Below, piece by piece: positions 11,957 through 59,359 of a stretch of 59,413 nucleotides of DNA (position 1 is its first letter; every line of letters begins with the position of its first letter). Source of the stretch: Candidatus Omnitrophota bacterium. GTDB lineage: Bacteria > Omnitrophota > Gorgyraeia > Aquiviventales > Aquiviventaceae. The notes beneath the pieces were generated by a model. That model was not told the DNA's origin. It did not search any database and saw nothing but the letters and a program-made list of their open reading frames with translations. Where the stretch lies: positions 1 to 59,413 of the forward strand of contig JACQWM010000056.1 in the NCBI GenBank assembly GCA_016209275.1, written 5' to 3'. Made by a program: the position numbers and the translations under genes.

Positions 11957-12321
11957 AGCGCGCGTTTTCGTTGATTGAGGTGATGATTGCCATGGCCATT
12001 CTCGCCGTGGGACTCTTCGGGGCGGTGCGCGTCTTTCCCATGGGCTTGCAGGCCTCCCATCGATCCGAACTGAGCAGCCGGGCCTCAATCGTGGCCGGGC
12101 GGATCCTGGAAGAGTTGAAGCTGAAGTCCTGCGCCGAGCTCAAAGAGGAAGCGATTACGCAAGAAGGGATGACGCTGGCCACGCGGTTCGCGCCGCTGAC
12201 CGTGCCGCATCTCGTGGATCAGCAACGGCTGAAAGCCGTCGAATTGACCGTCACGTGGCAGCAGAATGGCCGGCCTCGCTCGCAGGTGTTTATGACGTAT
12301 GTGCGCTGCGTTCCATCGTAA
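11953..12321 (+). CDS. Type IV prepilin-like minor pseudopilin (PilV/GspI type)
   Basis: The product has 122 residues. The class III leader is only four residues: MKRA, then FSLIEVMIAMAILAVGLFGAV, with Glu at mature position 5. The residue before the cleavage site is Ala instead of the usual Gly, which prepilin peptidases can accept. After the ~25-residue hydrophobic helix comes a short globular domain with two cysteines (positions ~59 and ~119). Size and position behind gspF suit a PilV/GspI-like minor pseudopilin. Its 3' end overlaps the proposed start of the next gene by 23 bp. Confidence 0.82.
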   Translation: MKRAFSLIEVMIAMAILAVGLFGAVRVFPMGLQASHRSELSSRASIVAGRILEELKLKSCAELKEEAITQEGMTLATRFAPLTVPHLVDQQRLKAVELTVTWQQNGRPRSQVFMTYVRCVPS

Positions 12322-12997
12322 AGATAGGTCGAAGGTGGAAGGTGGAAGGTGGAAGCAAACACCCCTTCGACCTTCGACCTTCGACCTTCGACCTTTCGCT
12401 TCTTATTATGCTCGGCATTCGCCAGTTGGATTGACGTTGGTCGAGCTGCTCATCGCACTGGCGATTCTCGTGACCGTCAGCGCGACGACCTTGCTGGTGT
12501 TCCGCGGAGTCATTAAAGCCTGGGGATCGGGTCAGCTGAAAACGGAGCGCTACCAGCAGGCGCGTTTGCTGTTTGATGTGTTTGAGCGGGAGCTCTCCTC
12601 GGCCGTGGCCAATCCCCGCTATCCGTTGGTGGGGGTAGGGCCCGGCGAGCCCTCCGTGGCGCATGAGGGGGTGGCGGTCTCAGCTGAGCTCGCGTTTGTC
12701 GGCAATTTGCCCGGCCGCAGCGGATTGGTGGAGCGGGTCTATTGGGCGACGTCCGCCGGGGTCTTCATGTGCCATGATGACGAATCCGGCGACGGCAATT
12801 ACGCGACCGGAGACGCGGAGATATGCGGCCGCGAGGTGCTGAATTTCGCCGTCGCGTACTTTGACGGCGCGCAGTGGCTGCCGCGCTGGGACGGCGCTCC
12901 CACCGGGCGGCTGCCAAAGGCCGTTCGGATCGCGCTGACCATCGGAAAACAGAAACCCGAATCGTTTGAGACGATCATTCATGTGCCGACGAGCTGA
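12299..12997 (+). CDS. PilW/GspJ-type prepilin with a repeat-encoded leader extension
   Basis: The mature N-terminus follows G at SPVG, then LTLVELLIALAILVTVSATTLLVF, with Glu at position 5, so this is a class III prepilin of GspJ/PilW size (~190 mature residues). There is no start codon near the cleavage site: the only in-frame starts are ATG 12299 and GTG 12335, giving leaders of 43 or 31 residues. Most of the leader is encoded by the inverted heptad arrays at 12326-12393. An ATG at 12408 is out of frame. The body contains DDESGDGNYATGDAE, a possible metal loop, and two cysteines. It overlaps the GspK-like gene by 17 bp. Confidence 0.78.
   Translation: MCAAFHRKDRSKVEGGRWKQTPLRPSTFDLRPFASYYARHSPVGLTLVELLIALAILVTVSATTLLVFRGVIKAWGSGQLKTERYQQARLLFDVFERELSSAVANPRYPLVGVGPGEPSVAHEGVAVSAELAFVGNLPGRSGLVERVYWATSAGVFMCHDDESGDGNYATGDAEICGREVLNFAVAYFDGAQWLPRWDGAPTGRLPKAVRIALTIGKQKPESFETIIHVPTS
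12326..12393. repeat. Inverted heptanucleotide arrays (AGGTSGA x4 / TTCGACC x4)
   Basis: Four 7-bp units AGGTCGA, AGGTGGA, AGGTGGA, AGGTGGA (12326-12353) are followed by a ~10-nt spacer and four perfect TTCGACC units (12366-12393). The two arrays are largely complementary, so a long hairpin is possible. They lie inside the 5' end of the PilW/GspJ-like gene and encode its leader extension. The 4+4 layout matches the array at 59283-59352. Confidence 0.9.
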
Positions 12998-15900: not shown

Positions 15901-16025
15901 TTCGAGAGATCGCCCATTTGCTGACGACGCGGTCTGATCTGTTTCGCATCGTCGGGTTGGGCCAGGCGATGCATGGCAGCCGGACCGAAGCGACCCAGCG
16001 CATCACCGCCGTGATCCAACGATGA
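12981..16025 (+). CDS. gspK: Giant GspK-like minor pseudopilin with HhH, lamin-tail and calcium-loop regions
   Basis: The start at ATG 12981 places a short leader, MCRRAEGEQG, before IALLIVVSVLTVVGIMGVAF; Glu5 is absent, as in GspK, the tip pseudopilin. The product is 1014 residues, about three times the usual GspK length. Two helix-hairpin-helix-like motifs (VNVNTATAAELLPILMDAGV near residue 250, VNVNTASRDVLLALPGMTEA near 915) bracket a ~650-residue insert. The insert holds beta-sandwich-like segments and a lamin-tail-like domain (YVELINLSDAAIDVGGWQLSG, ~550-610). Acidic loops DTDVDGDGARE, DDDGDGAIDELDE and DGNGDGVDDGW look calcium-binding, and GspK is known to bind calcium. I infer a surface-exposed tip with added binding domains. 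It overlaps the next gene by 4 bp. Confidence 0.8.
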   Translation: MCRRAEGEQGIALLIVVSVLTVVGIMGVAFAFSMYLETQATQQFVATHQARYLAEAGVAHARALLDEDKTASRVDHLEEFWASEGAGSDTDVDGDGARESKWWLSTGTGGQLVGRYAIAVADESGKANLNAAQADPDPLGVGAINATKVLQAAGISDAHDIAVMIEEYRHGPDERPGKAGIDDDGDGAIDELDEYQPFALQGDDRRIESLEELRTIAGLAPQDIKPLSRVATVYSWDANVTVGGASRVNVNTATAAELLPILMDAGVDDPWQVAVNMADAVDADPEMSQVTRTSVRFLMSDQGAQGSWTWSDQPHGHYRSTSSGATLSWSITVASNTYRVLVKGLPGVRVGDVAVGGQSQSSMDSGESLGMLQLEGPITIQVTNHEPSGTLCAFRGLELVPESASGGTAVRGIEAVRLNELMIEPSMTFDVSAAEFDPQGSGWQCPGGGAPCLNSAGGQGRWTWTSLFVPAGRYYVRVHAAAAGQTVGNVSIDGDSRLLVHQQRHPATLLVGSDGKISVAIGKTAAEGTYYLLGLTISLQPDAEYVELINLSDAAIDVGGWQLSGELGGGRVAKLPSGSVIQPHALLVAAVDVNDNQTGLGGNGIEAKSSWSMADGVNAVQLEFPGGAPTPDDDWLKATPPSGTSTLRLQTTHGAVVDEIEYPAQGAGNFQSLEKGDPSIVIDGNGDGVDDGWYPSLQLYTPGLKNDNEGLKEIVGLTQIVHDPATEVTVLNRPLGGVGELAGLASGIPWRPFSTAELARIVDRVTVDGYRLEAEGHWTGSEGSEAWTEKTEGYYLHTDPAQAAAAGHWRWMGLPNGTYRISLYGCSGCQGEQMAVRWQRVDESFTEWSPLLATDIQGRIVIGTMTVGPAPAGASDIGTASQTVTLEVTCASADGICHVDYLRLDPQLVRVGPVNVNTASRDVLLALPGMTEALASRLMTGRPYGDQRSKGLGIGDLLLGDVLGSDEATRLAMFREIAHLLTTRSDLFRIVGLGQAMHGSRTEATQRITAVIQR

Positions 16026-17515
16026 AGAGACATACGGTCTTCAATAGTTGCTATCTGCTATCTGCTATCTGCTATCTGCTGCCCTTGACGGCGGAGGCGG
16101 CGCAAAGCAAAGGCGCTGACAAGGAACTCGCGCTCGCCAGCGCCAATCAAGGGGGCGGCAATGTCTCATCCTCCAAGTATCAGCACACGATGACGGTCGG
16201 CGAGGTGGTCGCGGGGATCAAACTCTCCAGCCAAAAATTTAAGGTGCTGCCCGGCTTCCTCAACGCCACCACGACGCCCTCGATGGTAGCGCCCAGCGAG
16301 CTGGATATTCTCGTGCTCTATGCGAAAGCCGATGCCTTGGGAGCCGTCATTCCCCCGGCCACCTGGCAGCCCGACAACGATCCGATCTTCATCTGGGAGC
16401 CGCCCGGCAGCCCGTCGGTGGCCGGCTATAGCTACCAGATCGACGGAACGGCTGATGACACCATCGACACCTCCGCGACCTCCGTGGATCTGGCCAGCCT
16501 GCCCAGCGTGCTGACGGACGGCACGCACACCTTCTCGGTGAAGGCGTTCAACAACGCCGGTAGCCACGGCGAGCCGATCACCATCGAGTTGTGGGTTGAC
16601 GCGACCCCGCCGCAGGTTCCGAGCTATGCGCCAGCACCCGCGAGCTTGCTGAGCGTGGCCGCCCCGCCAGTGACCGCGACCGTCTCGGATGGGGGCAGCG
16701 GGGTTGATCCTGCCGCGTTGCAGGTGCTGGTCAACGGCGGGGCAGCGACGGTGACCTGGAACGCCTCCACCAATCTCTTGACGGCCGCCGGCGGGGCCTG
16801 GCAGGACGGCGTCAATAACATCGAGCTGCGCGTGGCCGATCTCATCGGCAATGCGCCGGCCCCTATCATCTGGAGTGTGACGCGCGATACCGCGCCGCCC
16901 ACCGGCACCCTCACGATTAACGGCGGGGCCCTGCTGACCACCAGCCTGTATGTGACGCTTGAGCTCTCCGCGGCCGATGCCACGACCAGTGTCACGCGCA
17001 TGCTGATTGGCAACGATCCGCTCTCCGGGTTTGTGGAAGAGCTCTACGCCACTCGGCGCGAGCAGTGGCGGCTCAATCCCCTCCGGGGCACGCAGACCGT
17101 GTATGTGAAATTCATCGATACCGCCGGCAATATCTCGCCGGCGGTCTCCGACGCGATTGAGCTGCTGCTGTTGTCTCCGGAGACGACGATTACCAGCGGT
17201 CCGGCCGGCTTTACCATGAACCGGGCCGCCACCTTTACCTTCATGTGCCCCCAGGAGAATTGCGTGTTTTCCTACGCGTTTGACAATGAGCCCTGGTCGG
17301 CGTGGAGCTCGCAGGCGACGGCGGCGAAAGCGGAGGTGCCCTACGGCAACCATTACTTCCGCGTCAAGGCGGCGAAAGAGGTCAACGGGATTCTGGAAAT
17401 TCAGCCTGATGAGGAAGACCCGTCGCCGGCCGAGCGCACGTGGGTCGTCGGTGTGGAGTCGCCCGCCTTCACGATGCCGAACGAATCTCCGATTAAAGTC
17501 TGGCGCGTCGAATAA
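16022..17515 (+). CDS. Secreted Ig-like-domain protein whose signal peptide is encoded by heptad repeats
   Basis: The product has 497 residues. The signal peptide core reads CYLLSAICYLLPLTAEA and is encoded by four tandem GCTATCT heptamers (16050-16077). Mature residues ~40-75 form a short conserved-looking block (SSSKYQHTMTVGEVVAGIKL, KVLPGFLNA). At least three Ig/FN3-like domains follow (FIWEPPGSPSVAGYSYQIDG, ATPPQVPSYAP, DTAPPTGTLTING), ending with a Cys-containing module (CPQENC). No enzymatic motif is visible. It is translationally coupled to gspK (ATGA overlap), so it may be a substrate or an accessory surface protein of the machine. Confidence 0.7.
   Translation: MKRHTVFNSCYLLSAICYLLPLTAEAAQSKGADKELALASANQGGGNVSSSKYQHTMTVGEVVAGIKLSSQKFKVLPGFLNATTTPSMVAPSELDILVLYAKADALGAVIPPATWQPDNDPIFIWEPPGSPSVAGYSYQIDGTADDTIDTSATSVDLASLPSVLTDGTHTFSVKAFNNAGSHGEPITIELWVDATPPQVPSYAPAPASLLSVAAPPVTATVSDGGSGVDPAALQVLVNGGAATVTWNASTNLLTAAGGAWQDGVNNIELRVADLIGNAPAPIIWSVTRDTAPPTGTLTINGGALLTTSLYVTLELSAADATTSVTRMLIGNDPLSGFVEELYATRREQWRLNPLRGTQTVYVKFIDTAGNISPAVSDAIELLLLSPETTITSGPAGFTMNRAATFTFMCPQENCVFSYAFDNEPWSAWSSQATAAKAEVPYGNHYFRVKAAKEVNGILEIQPDEEDPSPAERTWVVGVESPAFTMPNESPIKVWRVE
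16050..16080 (+). repeat. Heptanucleotide tandem repeat (GCTATCT x4)
   Basis: Four perfect GCTATCT units (16050-16077) plus GCT lie within codons ~10-20 of the downstream gene. Because 7 is coprime to 3, the array gives a 7-residue protein period (CYLLSAI), all hydrophobic or small, and forms the signal peptide core. Confidence 0.95.
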
Positions 17516-20545: not shown

Positions 20546-22210
20546 GTGAGGGCAGCTAGGTTGAGTTCATCCAGAGTTCGACGCGCCGCGTTCGTGCTGA
20601 GCGTGGCGTGCTGGTGGCCGGCATGGGCTGTACTCGCACAGCAGAGTGCCCCGGCCACCGACGATCCTGTTGAGCCCGTGTCGTTTTCCCTCGCCGCCTT
20701 GCTGATGGAGGCCCCCCCGGAAGCCAAGCCGCAGGCACCCCTTCTTCGGCAAGCCATTGCGACCTTCCAATCCCGCCTGCAAGCGGAGCAGAACGTCAAG
20801 CAGATTCAGGCCGAGACGGACAGCGTGAAGACAAAAGTTGCGGCTGTCAACAGCGAGCTTGAAGTGCTCGCCCAGCAGCGGCAGCGGTTGGAACAGGATG
20901 TCGTCGGCCTGGAATCCCAGCAGCGGGCCCGGCTTGAAGCCCTGCGCCAAGAGCTGGAAGCGCGCATGGCTCGCGAGCTGGATGCGGCGCGCCAGGCGAT
21001 GAGGGGACAGTATGAGAAAGACGTGACGCGCCGGATTCAGCAGTTTGAGGCCAGGCAGCAGGAAACCATCGGGCAAGCGCTCGAGCAGGAAATCGACGCG
21101 CAGGAGCGCGAGCTGGCACAGCTGAGCCAAGAGCTCGATGTGCAGACGCAAGAGCTCAATGCGCATCTGTCGCGATTAGAGATCAGCCCCGATGTCTCGC
21201 GAACGCTGGGGCGCTCCACCGCGGAAGCGCTGACGAAGCGCCGAGCGGATTTGGTGGCGCGCCGACGTAAAATCATCGCCGAGCGCGATGCGCGAGTGGC
21301 CGCCCTGCGCGTGGAATTCACCGAACAGCTGAAGCGCAACTATGAGCTTGATCAGCGCCGGCGCTTGACGCTCAACGAAGCCAGCATCCGGCAGGCGATG
21401 GCTGAGCTGCTCACCAACACGCGGCGCGATCAAGCCGGCCAAATCGACCACGCCCGCAAGATGTTTAGCGACGTGCGGAATCGGTACGGCGAACTGGCCC
21501 AGGTGCAGGCGTCGCTCAATGCCCGCACCGAGGCGCTGAGCAAAGAGCTCAGCGCGGCCCAGCAGCGGGTGGTGTCATTGCAGACCGAGCAGGATACCGT
21601 GATCGCGCGGTTGGAAGGATCCTTCCAACAGCCCAATGCGGTGGCCTCTGAAACCTTTGCCTGGTTCGACGAGGTGACCGGCCATCTGCCCCAGGAGCTG
21701 GCCGGAGAATTCGAGCGGCTGAAGGTTCGGGTGGTGGTTTCGGCAGAGCAGATGCAGCGGATGGAAGAGCGCTCGCGTGTGCTGCGCGAGCGGCAACAGG
21801 CCTTGCAACTCGCACACGAGATGGAGGCGCGGCAGCAAGCCGCGCTGCTGAAGCAGCAGCGTGAGCAGGAAGCCAAAGCCCGCAAGGCGGATGAGCTGCT
21901 GGCGAAAGCGAATCAGTGGGCCGAGCGCCAGCGCTACGATGAGGCCTTGCGCCTGATCGCGCAAGCCCAAGAGCTGAACCCGCCGCAGGTGTCCCGCGTG
22001 ACCATCGCCCGCGAGCAAATTGTGTCCGCGAAAGAGCGGGCCGACCATCAGGTTAGGACCGATCAGCTGGAGCAACTCTTCGCGAAGGCGATGCAGGTGT
22101 TCCAGCAGGGCAAGTACGAGGAGTCGATTGGATTGTTCGAGCAGGTGATTGCGCAAGAGGCGGCGCTTGACCCCTCATCGGTACGGTTGGTGGACAGTAC
22201 GAATCCATGA
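20546..22210 (+). CDS. Exported long coiled-coil protein of the secretion operon
   Basis: The start is a GTG at 20546; an in-frame TTG at 20561 with GAGG upstream is an alternative that gives MSSSRVRRAAFVLSV. A signal peptide ending near AVLAQQ is followed by residues ~65-460 of almost continuous Gln/Glu/Arg/Ala heptads, predicting an extended coiled coil. The last ~100 residues are TPR-like (ANQWAERQRYDEALRLIAQAQELNP; AMQVFQQGKYEESIGLFEQVI). No enzyme motif is seen. It sits between PilP/GspC and the first secretin (4-bp overlap with the latter), and that secretin also has an N-terminal TPR/coiled region. I infer a periplasmic pilotin-like or alignment factor. Confidence 0.6.
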   Translation: MRAARLSSSRVRRAAFVLSVACWWPAWAVLAQQSAPATDDPVEPVSFSLAALLMEAPPEAKPQAPLLRQAIATFQSRLQAEQNVKQIQAETDSVKTKVAAVNSELEVLAQQRQRLEQDVVGLESQQRARLEALRQELEARMARELDAARQAMRGQYEKDVTRRIQQFEARQQETIGQALEQEIDAQERELAQLSQELDVQTQELNAHLSRLEISPDVSRTLGRSTAEALTKRRADLVARRRKIIAERDARVAALRVEFTEQLKRNYELDQRRRLTLNEASIRQAMAELLTNTRRDQAGQIDHARKMFSDVRNRYGELAQVQASLNARTEALSKELSAAQQRVVSLQTEQDTVIARLEGSFQQPNAVASETFAWFDEVTGHLPQELAGEFERLKVRVVVSAEQMQRMEERSRVLRERQQALQLAHEMEARQQAALLKQQREQEAKARKADELLAKANQWAERQRYDEALRLIAQAQELNPPQVSRVTIAREQIVSAKERADHQVRTDQLEQLFAKAMQVFQQGKYEESIGLFEQVIAQEAALDPSSVRLVDSTNP

Positions 22211-24414
22211 ATCGCGTGCGGCGTGCGGCGTGCGTAGGCTTGACGGTCGCTGTGTCCTTCGGAGCCCGGACCTGGGCTGAGCAAGCTCCGTCGACGCAAA
22301 CGGAGCTGAAACAGTTTGCCCCGCTGGCCCGCCAATTCATGCAATTGGCCAAGGCGCGCCTCGGAGAACGGCAGCAGGAGGACGAGGCGGCGCGCGAGCG
22401 CGGGAAAGAAGAAGCGCAGCGTCTGGCGATTGAGATGACGAACAGCAAGCAGCGGCAGCGCGCCGCTGCGGATCAGCGCGCGCAAGGGCAGCTGCGGCTC
22501 GCCCGCGAAGGGCAGATCAAAGCCCTCTACAAGCACGCCCTCGCCCTCTATAACGAAGGCGCCTACGATAAGGCGGCCGAGACCCTGCGGGAGCTGGCCG
22601 TGCTGGATCCTGCGCATCCGCTGGTGAAGGCGGCGGATCGGCTGCTGGCGCGCGTGGAGCTGAAGCAGTTTGAGCATCGCTTGCGCGCCAGCGCGCAGCT
22701 GCCGGCGAACGCGAAGACGGCGAACGTTCCCCAGCTCGAAGAGCTGCTCACCAATAAGAAGATGGAGCTGGAGACCGCCGTCAACTACGCCAAGGCGGCG
22801 ATGCGCAATCGCAACTATGCCGTGGCCGAAAAGCTCCTCACGGCGGTGTTAGTCCAGGATCCTTCCGCCTCGACCGCCCGCCGGCTGCTGGAGCAGGTCC
22901 AGATGGCCGCGGTGGAGGAGGAGCGCGCGCGGGCCACGGCGCAACTGGAGCGTGATGAGCGGCTCATGGAGAATGAGGTCATCAAGGCGCAGCTGCTGCC
23001 GCCGGAGCCGCCGCCGGTGTCGGTGCCAAACCCCTTGCTCGCGGCCGCGCGGAAGCAGCGCATGGCCGCCAAGCTGCAGCAGCCGGTGAGTTTTGAATTC
23101 ACTGACGTGGCGCTCGGCGACGTCATGGAATTCCTCGCCGACGCCGCCGGGGTGAGCATTATTCCCTCGCCGCAGCTGGATTTAAAGGGCCGGAAAGTGT
23201 CCATGAAAGCGCATCAGCTGCCGCTGGAGCAGGCGGTCAAATACTTGGCCAAGAACCTATCGCTGGCGTATCGCCTGGACGAGGATGCCATCTTGCTGGC
23301 CACGGCGGATGAGTTTTCCAAGCAGCCGATGGAAACGCGCGTGTTTTTCCTGCGCAGCGGGCTGGGGCCCTTTGCGCTGAAGATGGCAGCACTAGAGCCG
23401 GACCCGAAACTGGCACTCTCCTCCATCGGCGAGTTGATTGAAAAATCGGTGCCCCAGCCCTCCGGCAGCAAGCTCGTCTTTGATGAGCGCAGCGGCGCGC
23501 TCATCGCCACCAACACCGGCGAGCATCTCGGCCTCATCGCCAACATGCTCAGCCAGCTGGATGTGACCCCCATTCAGATTCTGATCGAGGCCCGCTTCAT
23601 CGAATTGACGATGACGGACCTTGAGCAGGCGTCCCTGGAGTCGGTGCTGACAGGCGATGTGGATCTGACGAAAAAGAAGCGGGATACGCGCCCTGGGTCG
23701 AATGTCGACAGCGAAGGGCCGGGACATCAGATTGCGACCGGCAGCGGCTTTAAGTTCCCCGCCTTATCCCGCGAAAGCGAGGCGCTGAACTTGACGCTGC
23801 AGGGGGTGCTGACCGGCGTGCAGTTTGAAACCGCCCTCCACCGGCTGCAAGAGACGCAGAAGAGCAAGACGCTCTCCGCCCCCCGTGTCACGGCGCTCAA
23901 TAACGAGACGGCCCAAATCAAGGTGGTGGATGAGTTCAATTACCCGACGCGCTACCAGGTGCAGCTCGTGCAGTTCGACATCAACGGCGACGGAGATTTT
24001 GATGACGCCGGAGAGACGCAATTCGTCAATGTGCCCCAGGATTTCCAGAAGCGCGACGTGGGCATTTTGCTCAACGTCACGCCCAGCGTCGGCAAAGATC
24101 TGAAGACGATCACCTTGGTGCTGGCCCCCGAGGTCAGCGCCTTCAGCTCATTCCGCGACTTAGGCGGCGGGGTGTCCGTGCCGGAGTTTACGACCAGACA
24201 GTTGACCACGAGTGTTGTGGTGGACGACGGGCAGACGGTGGTCCTGGGCGGTCTCATGCAGGATTCGACCTCCACCACCAACACCAAAGTGCCCATCTTG
24301 GGAGATCTGCCGCTGCTCGGCTCGCTCTTCCGCCAGACGGAAGAGTCGAACACCCGTAAAAATTTGCTCATCTTTATTACCGCGAGACTGCTCGCCTCCC
24401 GTCCCACCACGTAA
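22207..24414 (+). CDS. Secretin (GspD/PilQ type) with N-terminal TPR-like extension
   Basis: The product has 735 residues. The signal peptide n-region is built from GCGTGCG heptads (MNRVRRAACVGLTVAVSFGA). Residues ~35-260 are coiled-coil/TPR-like (ALALYNEGAYDKAAETLRELA). An N0/STN domain (~295-360: FEFTDVALGDVMEFLADAAG) and an N1-like domain (~400-470) follow. The secretin core (~520-730) has LTLQGVLTGVQFETALHRLQ, KTLSAPRVTALNNETAQI, VPILGDLPLLGSLF. Within the core is a calcium-type loop, DINGDGDFDDAGE, near 23980. It forms the outer-membrane pore. It overlaps both neighbours by 1-4 bp, and a second secretin-like gene follows at once. Confidence 0.9.
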   Translation: MNRVRRAACVGLTVAVSFGARTWAEQAPSTQTELKQFAPLARQFMQLAKARLGERQQEDEAARERGKEEAQRLAIEMTNSKQRQRAAADQRAQGQLRLAREGQIKALYKHALALYNEGAYDKAAETLRELAVLDPAHPLVKAADRLLARVELKQFEHRLRASAQLPANAKTANVPQLEELLTNKKMELETAVNYAKAAMRNRNYAVAEKLLTAVLVQDPSASTARRLLEQVQMAAVEEERARATAQLERDERLMENEVIKAQLLPPEPPPVSVPNPLLAAARKQRMAAKLQQPVSFEFTDVALGDVMEFLADAAGVSIIPSPQLDLKGRKVSMKAHQLPLEQAVKYLAKNLSLAYRLDEDAILLATADEFSKQPMETRVFFLRSGLGPFALKMAALEPDPKLALSSIGELIEKSVPQPSGSKLVFDERSGALIATNTGEHLGLIANMLSQLDVTPIQILIEARFIELTMTDLEQASLESVLTGDVDLTKKKRDTRPGSNVDSEGPGHQIATGSGFKFPALSRESEALNLTLQGVLTGVQFETALHRLQETQKSKTLSAPRVTALNNETAQIKVVDEFNYPTRYQVQLVQFDINGDGDFDDAGETQFVNVPQDFQKRDVGILLNVTPSVGKDLKTITLVLAPEVSAFSSFRDLGGGVSVPEFTTRQLTTSVVVDDGQTVVLGGLMQDSTSTTNTKVPILGDLPLLGSLFRQTEESNTRKNLLIFITARLLASRPTT
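22214..22234 (+). repeat. Heptanucleotide tandem repeat (GCGTGCG x3)
   Basis: Three perfect 7-bp units lie in codons 3-10 of the secretin gene and encode the Arg/Ala-rich n-region (RVRRAACV) of its signal peptide. They are shorter than the other arrays but show the same period and the same position at an export leader. Confidence 0.75.
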
Positions 24415-33383: not shown

Positions 33384-34169
33384 ATGCGCCTCCCTGCGCG
33401 CGCGGGCGTGATTGTCGGTAGTGTGCTGCTGCTCTCCGCCACGGCTTCCGCGCTCCATCAACCTCTCCGGATCCATCACACGGCCCAGCACGTCGCCCTC
33501 GCCATCCTGCGTTTTCCGTTCACCGTCGTCAGCGCCGCGGTGTCCACCGCGCGCCTCTTGCCCAGGCTGCCATCGCTCGCCCAGGAAAACGCCGCACTCC
33601 GAGCGCAGCTGGCACAGCAGCAGAGCGAGCTGGCTGATTGGCAGCAGCGGCAGCAGCACGCGAAACGCCTCAGCGCGCTGGCGGCCGCCTCCGCCGCCAC
33701 AGGCGTTGTCGCTGACGTGATCGGCCGATCGACCATCCCCACGCAGCAGATCATTCTGCTCAATCGGGGGCGAGCCGACGGCGTCTCGCCTGATCATGTC
33801 GTGGTGGATGCGGCGGGCGTGGTGGGGCGCGTGAGGGAGCTCACGTCCGCCACCGCGCTCGTGACGCTGCTGACGGATCCGGAGAGCCGCATCGCAGCGC
33901 TCGTAGAGCGATCCCGCGAAGCCGCGCTGCTGGTGGGCCGCGGCCGCGGCCGGTGTGAATTGTTGTATCTTGACGCGGAAGCGGAGATTCAGGTGGGTGA
34001 TCGAGTCATCACGGCGGGGCTCGGCGGGGCGTTTCCCAAAGGCCTGCGGCTCGGCGAGGTCACCCGGGTGACGAAGCATCCGGCGGCTGGCACGACCTCA
34101 GCATGGGTCGCGCCGTCTGCGCGCGTCGGACAACTTGAAGAAGTCCTATGTTTGCCTCCGCAACAATGA
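33384..34169 (+). CDS. mreC: Rod-shape determining protein MreC
   Basis: The product has 261 residues. MreC is a bitopic inner-membrane protein that activates PBP2. An N-terminal transmembrane helix (~8-25), a coiled coil with ENAALRAQLAQQQSELADW (~65-100) and the periplasmic double beta-barrel are present: VVADVIGRSTIPTQQIILLN, GRADGVSPDHVVVDAAGVVG, VTLLTDPESRIAALVERSRE, VGDRVITAGLGGAFPKGLRL. It ends right where a 150-bp heptad repeat begins. Confidence 0.93.
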   Translation: MRLPARAGVIVGSVLLLSATASALHQPLRIHHTAQHVALAILRFPFTVVSAAVSTARLLPRLPSLAQENAALRAQLAQQQSELADWQQRQQHAKRLSALAAASAATGVVADVIGRSTIPTQQIILLNRGRADGVSPDHVVVDAAGVVGRVRELTSATALVTLLTDPESRIAALVERSREAALLVGRGRGRCELLYLDAEAEIQVGDRVITAGLGGAFPKGLRLGEVTRVTKHPAAGTTSAWVAPSARVGQLEEVLCLPPQQ

Positions 34170-34171
34170 CC

Positions 34172-34315
34172 CCCATGACCAATGACCAAATTCCAATAAC
34201 CAAACAAGCTCCAATGACCGAATTACCAATGACCAAACGAGCAACATGGTTTGGTCATTCGGTCATTGGGAAATTGGTCATTGTTCGGTCATTGGTGCTT
34301 GGTGATTGGTCATTA
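34172..34315. repeat. Large imperfect inverted heptad array (CCAATGA family) between mreC and mreD
   Basis: Words CCAATGA, CCAAATT, CCAATAA, CCAAACA, CCAATGA and CCAATGA cover ~34176-34238. Their complements (TTTGGTCA, TTCGGTCA, TTGGTCA, TTGGTGC, TTGGTGA) cover ~34250-34315. AATGACCAAAC (34228-34238) and GTTTGGTCATT (34249-34259) form a perfect 11-bp stem. The array fills the whole mreC-mreD gap and leaves the operon otherwise intact. Confidence 0.88.
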
Positions 34316-34335
34316 GTGAGGCATGGGATTACAGA

Positions 34336-34770
34336 ATGCGGCTCGTGATTGTTTGCTGGATGGCCCAACTACTGCTCGTACAGGTGTTGCCGTCGCCCTG
34401 GTGGGTGCCGGATCTTCTGGTGGTAGCGCTAGTCGTGGCGATGAGCGCGCAGCCCAATCGGTGGGTGGCGCTCTCCGCGGCGGCCGGGCTCTGTCAGAGC
34501 GTGTGGGCGGTGCGGTTTCCCTGGCACATCGTGATGAGCTACGTGGGGGTCGGGTGGCTGGCCATGCTGGCGCACGCCCGCTGGAACGCCGCGGATTGGC
34601 GCGTGCAAGCGCTGGCCGTGGGTGCCGGTGTGGCGATGGTCACCGCCGTGGGGTTGGGGCTTGACGCGCTGTGGTCGCTGGATGCCATCGGGCTCGCCGG
34701 CGTTCGGGTAGGGCTGACGGTGCTGAGCTTTTTTCTTCTGCGCCGTATCGCCGATTCTTCCCTTGGATAA
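34336..34770 (+). CDS. mreD: MreD-like inner-membrane protein
   Basis: The product has 144 residues when started at ATG 34336; an in-frame TTG at 34306 lies inside the repeat and is unlikely. It is very hydrophobic, with about four to five transmembrane segments (LVIVCWMAQLLLVQVL, DLLVVALVVAMSA, IVMSYVGVGWLAMLA, ALAVGAGVAMVTAVGLGL, VGLTVLSFFLLRRI). Sequence signatures are weak, as usual for MreD, but size, topology and position between mreC and the PBP2 gene make the call sound. The stop lies 7 bp before the PBP2 ATG. Confidence 0.85.
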   Translation: MRLVIVCWMAQLLLVQVLPSPWWVPDLLVVALVVAMSAQPNRWVALSAAAGLCQSVWAVRFPWHIVMSYVGVGWLAMLAHARWNAADWRVQALAVGAGVAMVTAVGLGLDALWSLDAIGLAGVRVGLTVLSFFLLRRIADSSLG

Positions 34771-59275: not shown

Positions 59276-59282
59276 GATGATC

Positions 59283-59352
59283 GTGGATTGTGGATTGTGG
59301 ATTGTGGATTGCCTATCTTTCAAGCCACCATCCACCATCCACCGTCCACCAT
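59283..59352. repeat. Inverted heptanucleotide arrays (GTGGATT x4 / CCACCAT x4)
   Basis: Four perfect GTGGATT units (59283-59310), a 14-nt spacer and four CCACCAT-type units (59325-59352, one CCACCGT) form arrays in opposite orientation, partly complementary. The layout of 4+4 units with a short spacer matches 12326-12393 although the sequence differs. They fill the gap between the fusion gene and the next ATG. Confidence 0.92.
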
Positions 59353-59359
59353 CCTCTCT

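Follow-up and report, generated by a model that had tools for sequence, protein, structure and literature searches.

A perfect heptamer array in the leader of a predicted exported protein very probably belongs to a class of short heptamer and octamer arrays, spread across its genome and its taxonomic family, whose members appear to have been recruited repeatedly as export signals. The array lies in the window, as we call the whole stretch of 59,413 nucleotides analysed here, at 16049-16080, where it forms a perfect (GCTATCT)4.6 run (4.6 copies, 100% match; TGCTATCTGCTATCTGCTATCTGCTATCTGCT). We arrive at this reading by setting it beside the other arrays of the source genome and those of related genera.

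The window array and its gene

The features of the gene and its leader are the following:

16022-17515, plus strand: ORF of 497 aa with an ATG start; predicted exported protein with marginal Ig-like domain matches; same-family orthologues 48-58% identical
16049-16080, plus strand: (GCTATCT)4.6 array coding CYLLSAICYLL, the probable hydrophobic core of the signal peptide (repeat scan and translation)
16091-16099, plus strand: A-E-A, probable signal peptidase recognition motif (from translation alone)

The gene sits between a T2SS-K-like gene, whose stop is overlapped by the ATG at 16022, and a PilN-like gene downstream. Its leader can be divided into a basic start (MKRHTVFNS), CYLLSAICYLL, PLTAEAA and QSKG, and the initial annotation had taken the repeat to supply the hydrophobic stretch of an export signal. 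This stands up well: hydropathy, the A-E-A motif and the orthologues all point to CYLLSAICYLL as the h-region of a signal peptide. Nor does translation seem to begin downstream of the array, which would undo the proposal: the sole alternative in-frame start ahead of the mature part, a TTG at codon 22, would delete the signal, and family orthologues of the gene keep a leader at the same place.

The 7-residue period of the translated array, also noted at the outset, is real and common to all three frames. Heptamer and octamer arrays give the same peptide cycle whichever frame is read, 7 and 8 being coprime to 3, so that only their total length sets the frame downstream. It is likewise correct that the gain or loss of one unit shifts the frame and that steps of three units keep it: only 1, 4 and 7 units are in frame at the window array, and 2, 3, 5, 6 or 8 units would truncate the protein by codon 42.

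A chance origin of the array was ruled out, both by an iid model, which expects about 1e-10 such runs per window, and by an order-5 Markov simulation of 1.8 Mb, which at a lower threshold returned 0 runs at period 7 and 0 at period 8. We also ruled out an mRNA hairpin at this site, where the array is a single arm whose fold is not unusual against shuffles (hairpin z -0.8).

The window holds further arrays, namely:

12326-12355, plus strand: 5' arm of AAGGTGG-type heptamers, read as RSKVEGGRWK in the leader of the pseudopilin-like ORF 12299-12997
12364-12395, plus strand: 3' arm of the same pair, CCTTCGA heptamers, read as PLRPSTFDLRPF
22214-22234, plus strand: (GCGTGCG)3 in the leader n-region of ORF 22207-24414 (secretin-like by eye)
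34175-34319, no strand assigned: degenerate heptamer inverted repeat of the CCAATGA / TTGGTCA type between ORFs 33384-34169 and 34306-34770 (hairpin z -7.5)
59279-59354, no strand assigned: heptamer inverted pair GATTGTG / CCACCAT, 3' of a sugar-transferase-like gene (hairpin z -7.4)

Both arms of the inverted pair at 12326-12395 jointly code the N-terminal leader of the pseudopilin-like ORF, and their hairpin (z -8.8) contains one mismatch per heptamer. Against shuffled sequence, three of the window's inverted pairs form much better folds; two of the three have such a mismatch in each heptamer, and two, at 34175-34319 and 59279-59354, lie between genes.

A class of short arrays concentrated between genes

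When nearly the whole 1.8-Mb source genome was scanned with every period tested, period 7 gave 53 perfect runs and period 8 gave 20, against 0-2 at each other period from 4 to 13. With mismatches allowed, the count rises to about 120 heptamer arrays and 42 octamer arrays, which fall into many unit families; the heptamer arrays have a median length of 31 bp (IQR 29-32) and the octamer arrays one of 32 bp. The sequence of the unit is not conserved among these copies. As judged with a home-made gene caller, 45% of the arrays are intergenic compared with 7% of random positions, i.e. a 6-7-fold enrichment, and many of them sit in tandem gene junctions.

Inverted pairs number 41 among the arrays of this genome. 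Of 27 junction pairs, 18 have a purine-rich 5' arm, so such an arm cannot be a strict rule; the two-arm plan is frequent without being universal, the window array itself being single-armed. In many pairs, the two arms disagree at a constant position of the unit, leaving a regular hairpin mismatch every 7 nt. The octamers (such as GTGGCC.. and GTGATT..) have the same arm length as the heptamers and form inverted pairs too, for example at C28:41546-41616 and C29:17805-17878. Three matches to Y1_Tnp (Y1-transposase) are present in the source genome (G000:C8:2271-2603, C53:55859-56194 and C42:11249-11491). A Y1 transposase was considered as the maker of the arrays and was not adopted; REP elements, the short palindromes that RAYT-type Y1 transposases mobilise, have a conserved sequence, and the array units do not.

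Five places in the source genome carry GCTATCT itself in three or more exact copies. Three of these are signal peptides, those of the window gene, of a lipoprotein (...MLLSAICYLLSAGLVGC) and of Skp (MKTSVAICYLLSAICG...), and the remaining two lie directly before the starts of cytosolic genes, hisF-like and tmk-like as named by eye. A microsatellite specific to the window locus is ruled out by these five places, and by a repeat class found at about 160.

Array-built leaders and the turnover of their units

At least eight leader peptides of the source genome contain arrays besides that of the window gene; by Pfam, they belong to Skp, LptE, a TonB receptor, a TPR lipoprotein, an HlyD-like lipoprotein, a PDZ protein and two unassigned proteins. 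The Skp leader is built from GCTATCT, as in the window gene, and that of LptE from another heptamer; in many leaders the array is the sole hydrophobic stretch. Arrays also code N-terminal extensions, of 31 residues in a guanylate kinase (L112:4313-4975, minus strand), where the family model begins at residue 32, and of 21 residues in a phosphoglycerate dehydrogenase (L121:3784-5418), where it begins at residue 22.

Across genera of one taxonomic family, we compared the loci of the window gene, Skp and LptE, 64 in all. An array lies within 210 nt ahead of the mature protein at 42 of the 64 (window gene 12/18, Skp 14/22, LptE 16/24), against 0/64 for control stretches inside the same three genes (Fisher p ~1e-17). 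The array itself makes up the hydrophobic core at 32 loci, as counted by eye from the locus listing, and all 32 are in frame. The units vary between genera (GCTATCT, TACTGCC, TTCTGCC, GTCTGCT, TCACTCA, TGTCCCC and more), and a single genome can reuse a unit, G023 having CAGCACA and GTCTGCT in all three genes. A single heptamer conserved among orthologues is ruled out, as units differ or are absent. The remaining orthologues have either an ordinary signal peptide or an array ahead of an ordinary core, and arrays at the compared genes are absent from some related genera. The initial annotation had suggested checking whether orthologues have a repeat-free signal peptide, and some within the family do; its refuting case, the same residues without a DNA repeat, does not literally occur, as orthologues carry other repeats or none and their residues differ.

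A frequent layout of these leaders runs from the start codon through a purine-rich arm (the polar n-region), a loop and a pyrimidine-rich arm (the h-region) to an AXA or lipobox site. This succession of a polar and a hydrophobic arm arises because, by hydropathy, the sense peptide cycle of most core units is hydrophobic and the antisense cycle polar, middle-A codons facing middle-U codons in the two arms. The core units TCACTCA, CACTGGT and TGTCCCC are weakly hydrophobic.

In other genomes of the family, 298 kb on contigs chosen for carrying lptE contain 22 perfect period-7 runs; the remaining periods up to 13 give 0-2 each. Family specificity was judged from exact repeat patterns: among 197 genomes of the class, 4 contain GTCTGCT x3 and all four belong to the same family, and GCTATCT x3 occurs in the source genome and G020 only, among 59 genomes searched. 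In public genomes, GCTATCT x4 is found in 98 stretches from many phyla, mostly away from ORF starts; two Elusimicrobia loci, L191 and L223, have it as a leader, which in L223 would require a TTG start. GCTATCT arrays of 9-17 units are present in other bacteria (L152, L163, L179, L220 and others, e.g. in Bisgaardia, Pasteurella and Comamonas); with their greater length, these may perhaps be genuine sites of phase variation.

Competing explanations and known systems

The reading that we favour holds that arrays of about 30 bp per arm come to lie at gene junctions and starts, as single arms or as inverted pairs, and that wherever one follows the start codon of an exported protein in frame, the translated pyrimidine-rich arm would become the hydrophobic core of a signal peptide, of the Sec or lipoprotein kind, and a complementary 5' arm, where present, would become the polar n-region. 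From the sequences we infer that array-built leaders are functional in export, and that an array originates by insertion or is generated locally and is retained where it serves as a leader. We could go further and suppose that, in this lineage, a dedicated enzymatic or hairpin-templated process continually writes repeat arms with a unit of 7 or 8 nt and a set length at gene starts, whose complementary arms provide finished leaders, both polar and hydrophobic, with signal peptides renewed from repeat DNA and not from point mutation alone; this idea is tentative, and we would hold it to be unlikely.

Between congeneric species, lptE carries a 36-bp array in G024 and none in G002, the sequence being otherwise alignable, and the arrays of the window gene differ between G019 and G026. 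In Skp, both arms are identical between G024 and G002 (0/60 differences) and the loop differs at 18/56 positions, and the length of the Skp arrays is exactly equal between congeneric species (one genome per species). No single-unit change was seen among the few congeneric pairs compared, and on these few pairs array dynamics appear to consist of gain, loss and replacement rather than those of a slipping microsatellite.

Unchanged Skp arms around a changing loop would also suit regulatory DNA or RNA elements of gene starts, i.e. hairpins or protein-binding repeats that act on mRNA stability or translation, with translation into a leader being a by-product. This is a serious though minor possibility, to which the many arrays in tandem gene junctions, the strong hairpins that some of them form, and the translational role proposed for TAACTGA repeats in the excerpt considered (PMC4679880) all lend weight. 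However, the unit sequence is highly variable, fold-less single arms occur, and arrays are missing at the same gene in related genera; the hydrophobic, in-frame nature of the cores would also be left unexplained. It is distinctly unlikely that the arrays are neutral products of mutation, made by slippage or hairpin-templated copying and tolerated at junctions and N-termini with no benefit even when translated. Arrays in intergenic regions, and those that extend the cytosolic guanylate kinase and phosphoglycerate dehydrogenase, are what such neutrality would predict, but in leaders the array is often the sole hydrophobic stretch, and is thus hardly functionless there.

The initial annotation had gone on to propose that the export signal switches on and off by phase variation, with slipped-strand mispairing changing the unit number and thereby synthesis and export, as CTCTT does in Neisseria opa. 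We now consider this very unlikely. Opa does offer a precedent for a repeat-coded signal peptide in the part of the source drawn on here (PMC3899988), and the window array resembles it: in both, the repeat lies where the signal peptide is coded, its unit length is not divisible by 3, and the number of units sets the frame, with wrong numbers truncating the window protein. Whereas opa, in the same excerpt, switches surface antigens, the arrays described here have many different units and are short and uniform (31-32 bp, compared with the 14-24 units studied at Haemophilus hmw1A in the excerpt of PMC8262952), and rather than dispensable surface or antigen genes they occupy leaders in housekeeping export genes (Skp and LptE, for example), extensions of metabolic enzymes, gene junctions and sites before cytosolic gene starts. 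Moreover, all 32 of the array-built cores across the three genes are in frame, between genera the unit is swapped for another rather than altered in number, and congeneric species have Skp arrays of equal length and gain or lose the lptE array as a whole. Occasional slippage at these arrays is conceivable. Finally, the DNA repeat as a by-product of peptide selection, in which Leu/Ala-rich cores are written in repeated codons, is a practically negligible prospect: signal-peptide cores do tolerate many hydrophobic sequences, but the period of this exact repeat is independent of codon boundaries, GCTATCT also occurs outside coding sequence, and the period spectrum peaks at 7 and 8 only.

If recruitment as export signals is indeed what these arrays reflect, then an inverted repeat whose two complementary arms are translated, in any frame, first into a polar and next into a hydrophobic peptide would provide a concrete route to new export signals, and the origin and turnover of signal peptides become testable across related genomes. 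A partial literature search found no description of heptamer arrays repeatedly recruited as signal peptides.

Several known systems, compared here through excerpts of the papers cited, share some of these properties. The TAACTGA repeats of Beggiatoaceae (PMC4679880) are likewise dispersed heptamer direct repeats in few copies, mostly at gene starts, and the present class shares with them its many short heptamer arrays concentrated between genes or at their starts; unlike TAACTGA, a single unit that lies just upstream of start codons and is almost never inverted, the present class has many units, 41 inverted pairs and translated leaders. The heptamer repeat of Haemophilus hmw1A (PMC8262952) also stands in tandem at a gene start, but its 14-24 units lie in the promoter region and tune transcription, whilst about 4 units lie in the coding region here. 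The dispersed ERIC/RU and Rickettsia palindromic elements (PMC2759123) are found in frame inside genes, and RU-2 even forms part of the signal peptide in one gene. However, RU elements measure 103-168 bp with a conserved sequence, and elements of this kind, of at least 100 bp with one conserved sequence, differ from tandem arms of about 31 bp whose units vary between copies and genera and which recur at the same genes across genera. The GGGAATC and GGGGA(T/C)T repeats of Xanthomonas and Nostoc (PMC4692102) form many heptamer arrays, mostly intergenic, whose length and sequence vary between related species, as do ours; they are G-rich and quadruplex-forming, and the excerpt mentions no link to signal peptides, in contrast to the link with leaders described here, which would show what heptamer repeats of this kind, noted in several phyla and hardly explained so far, can be used for.
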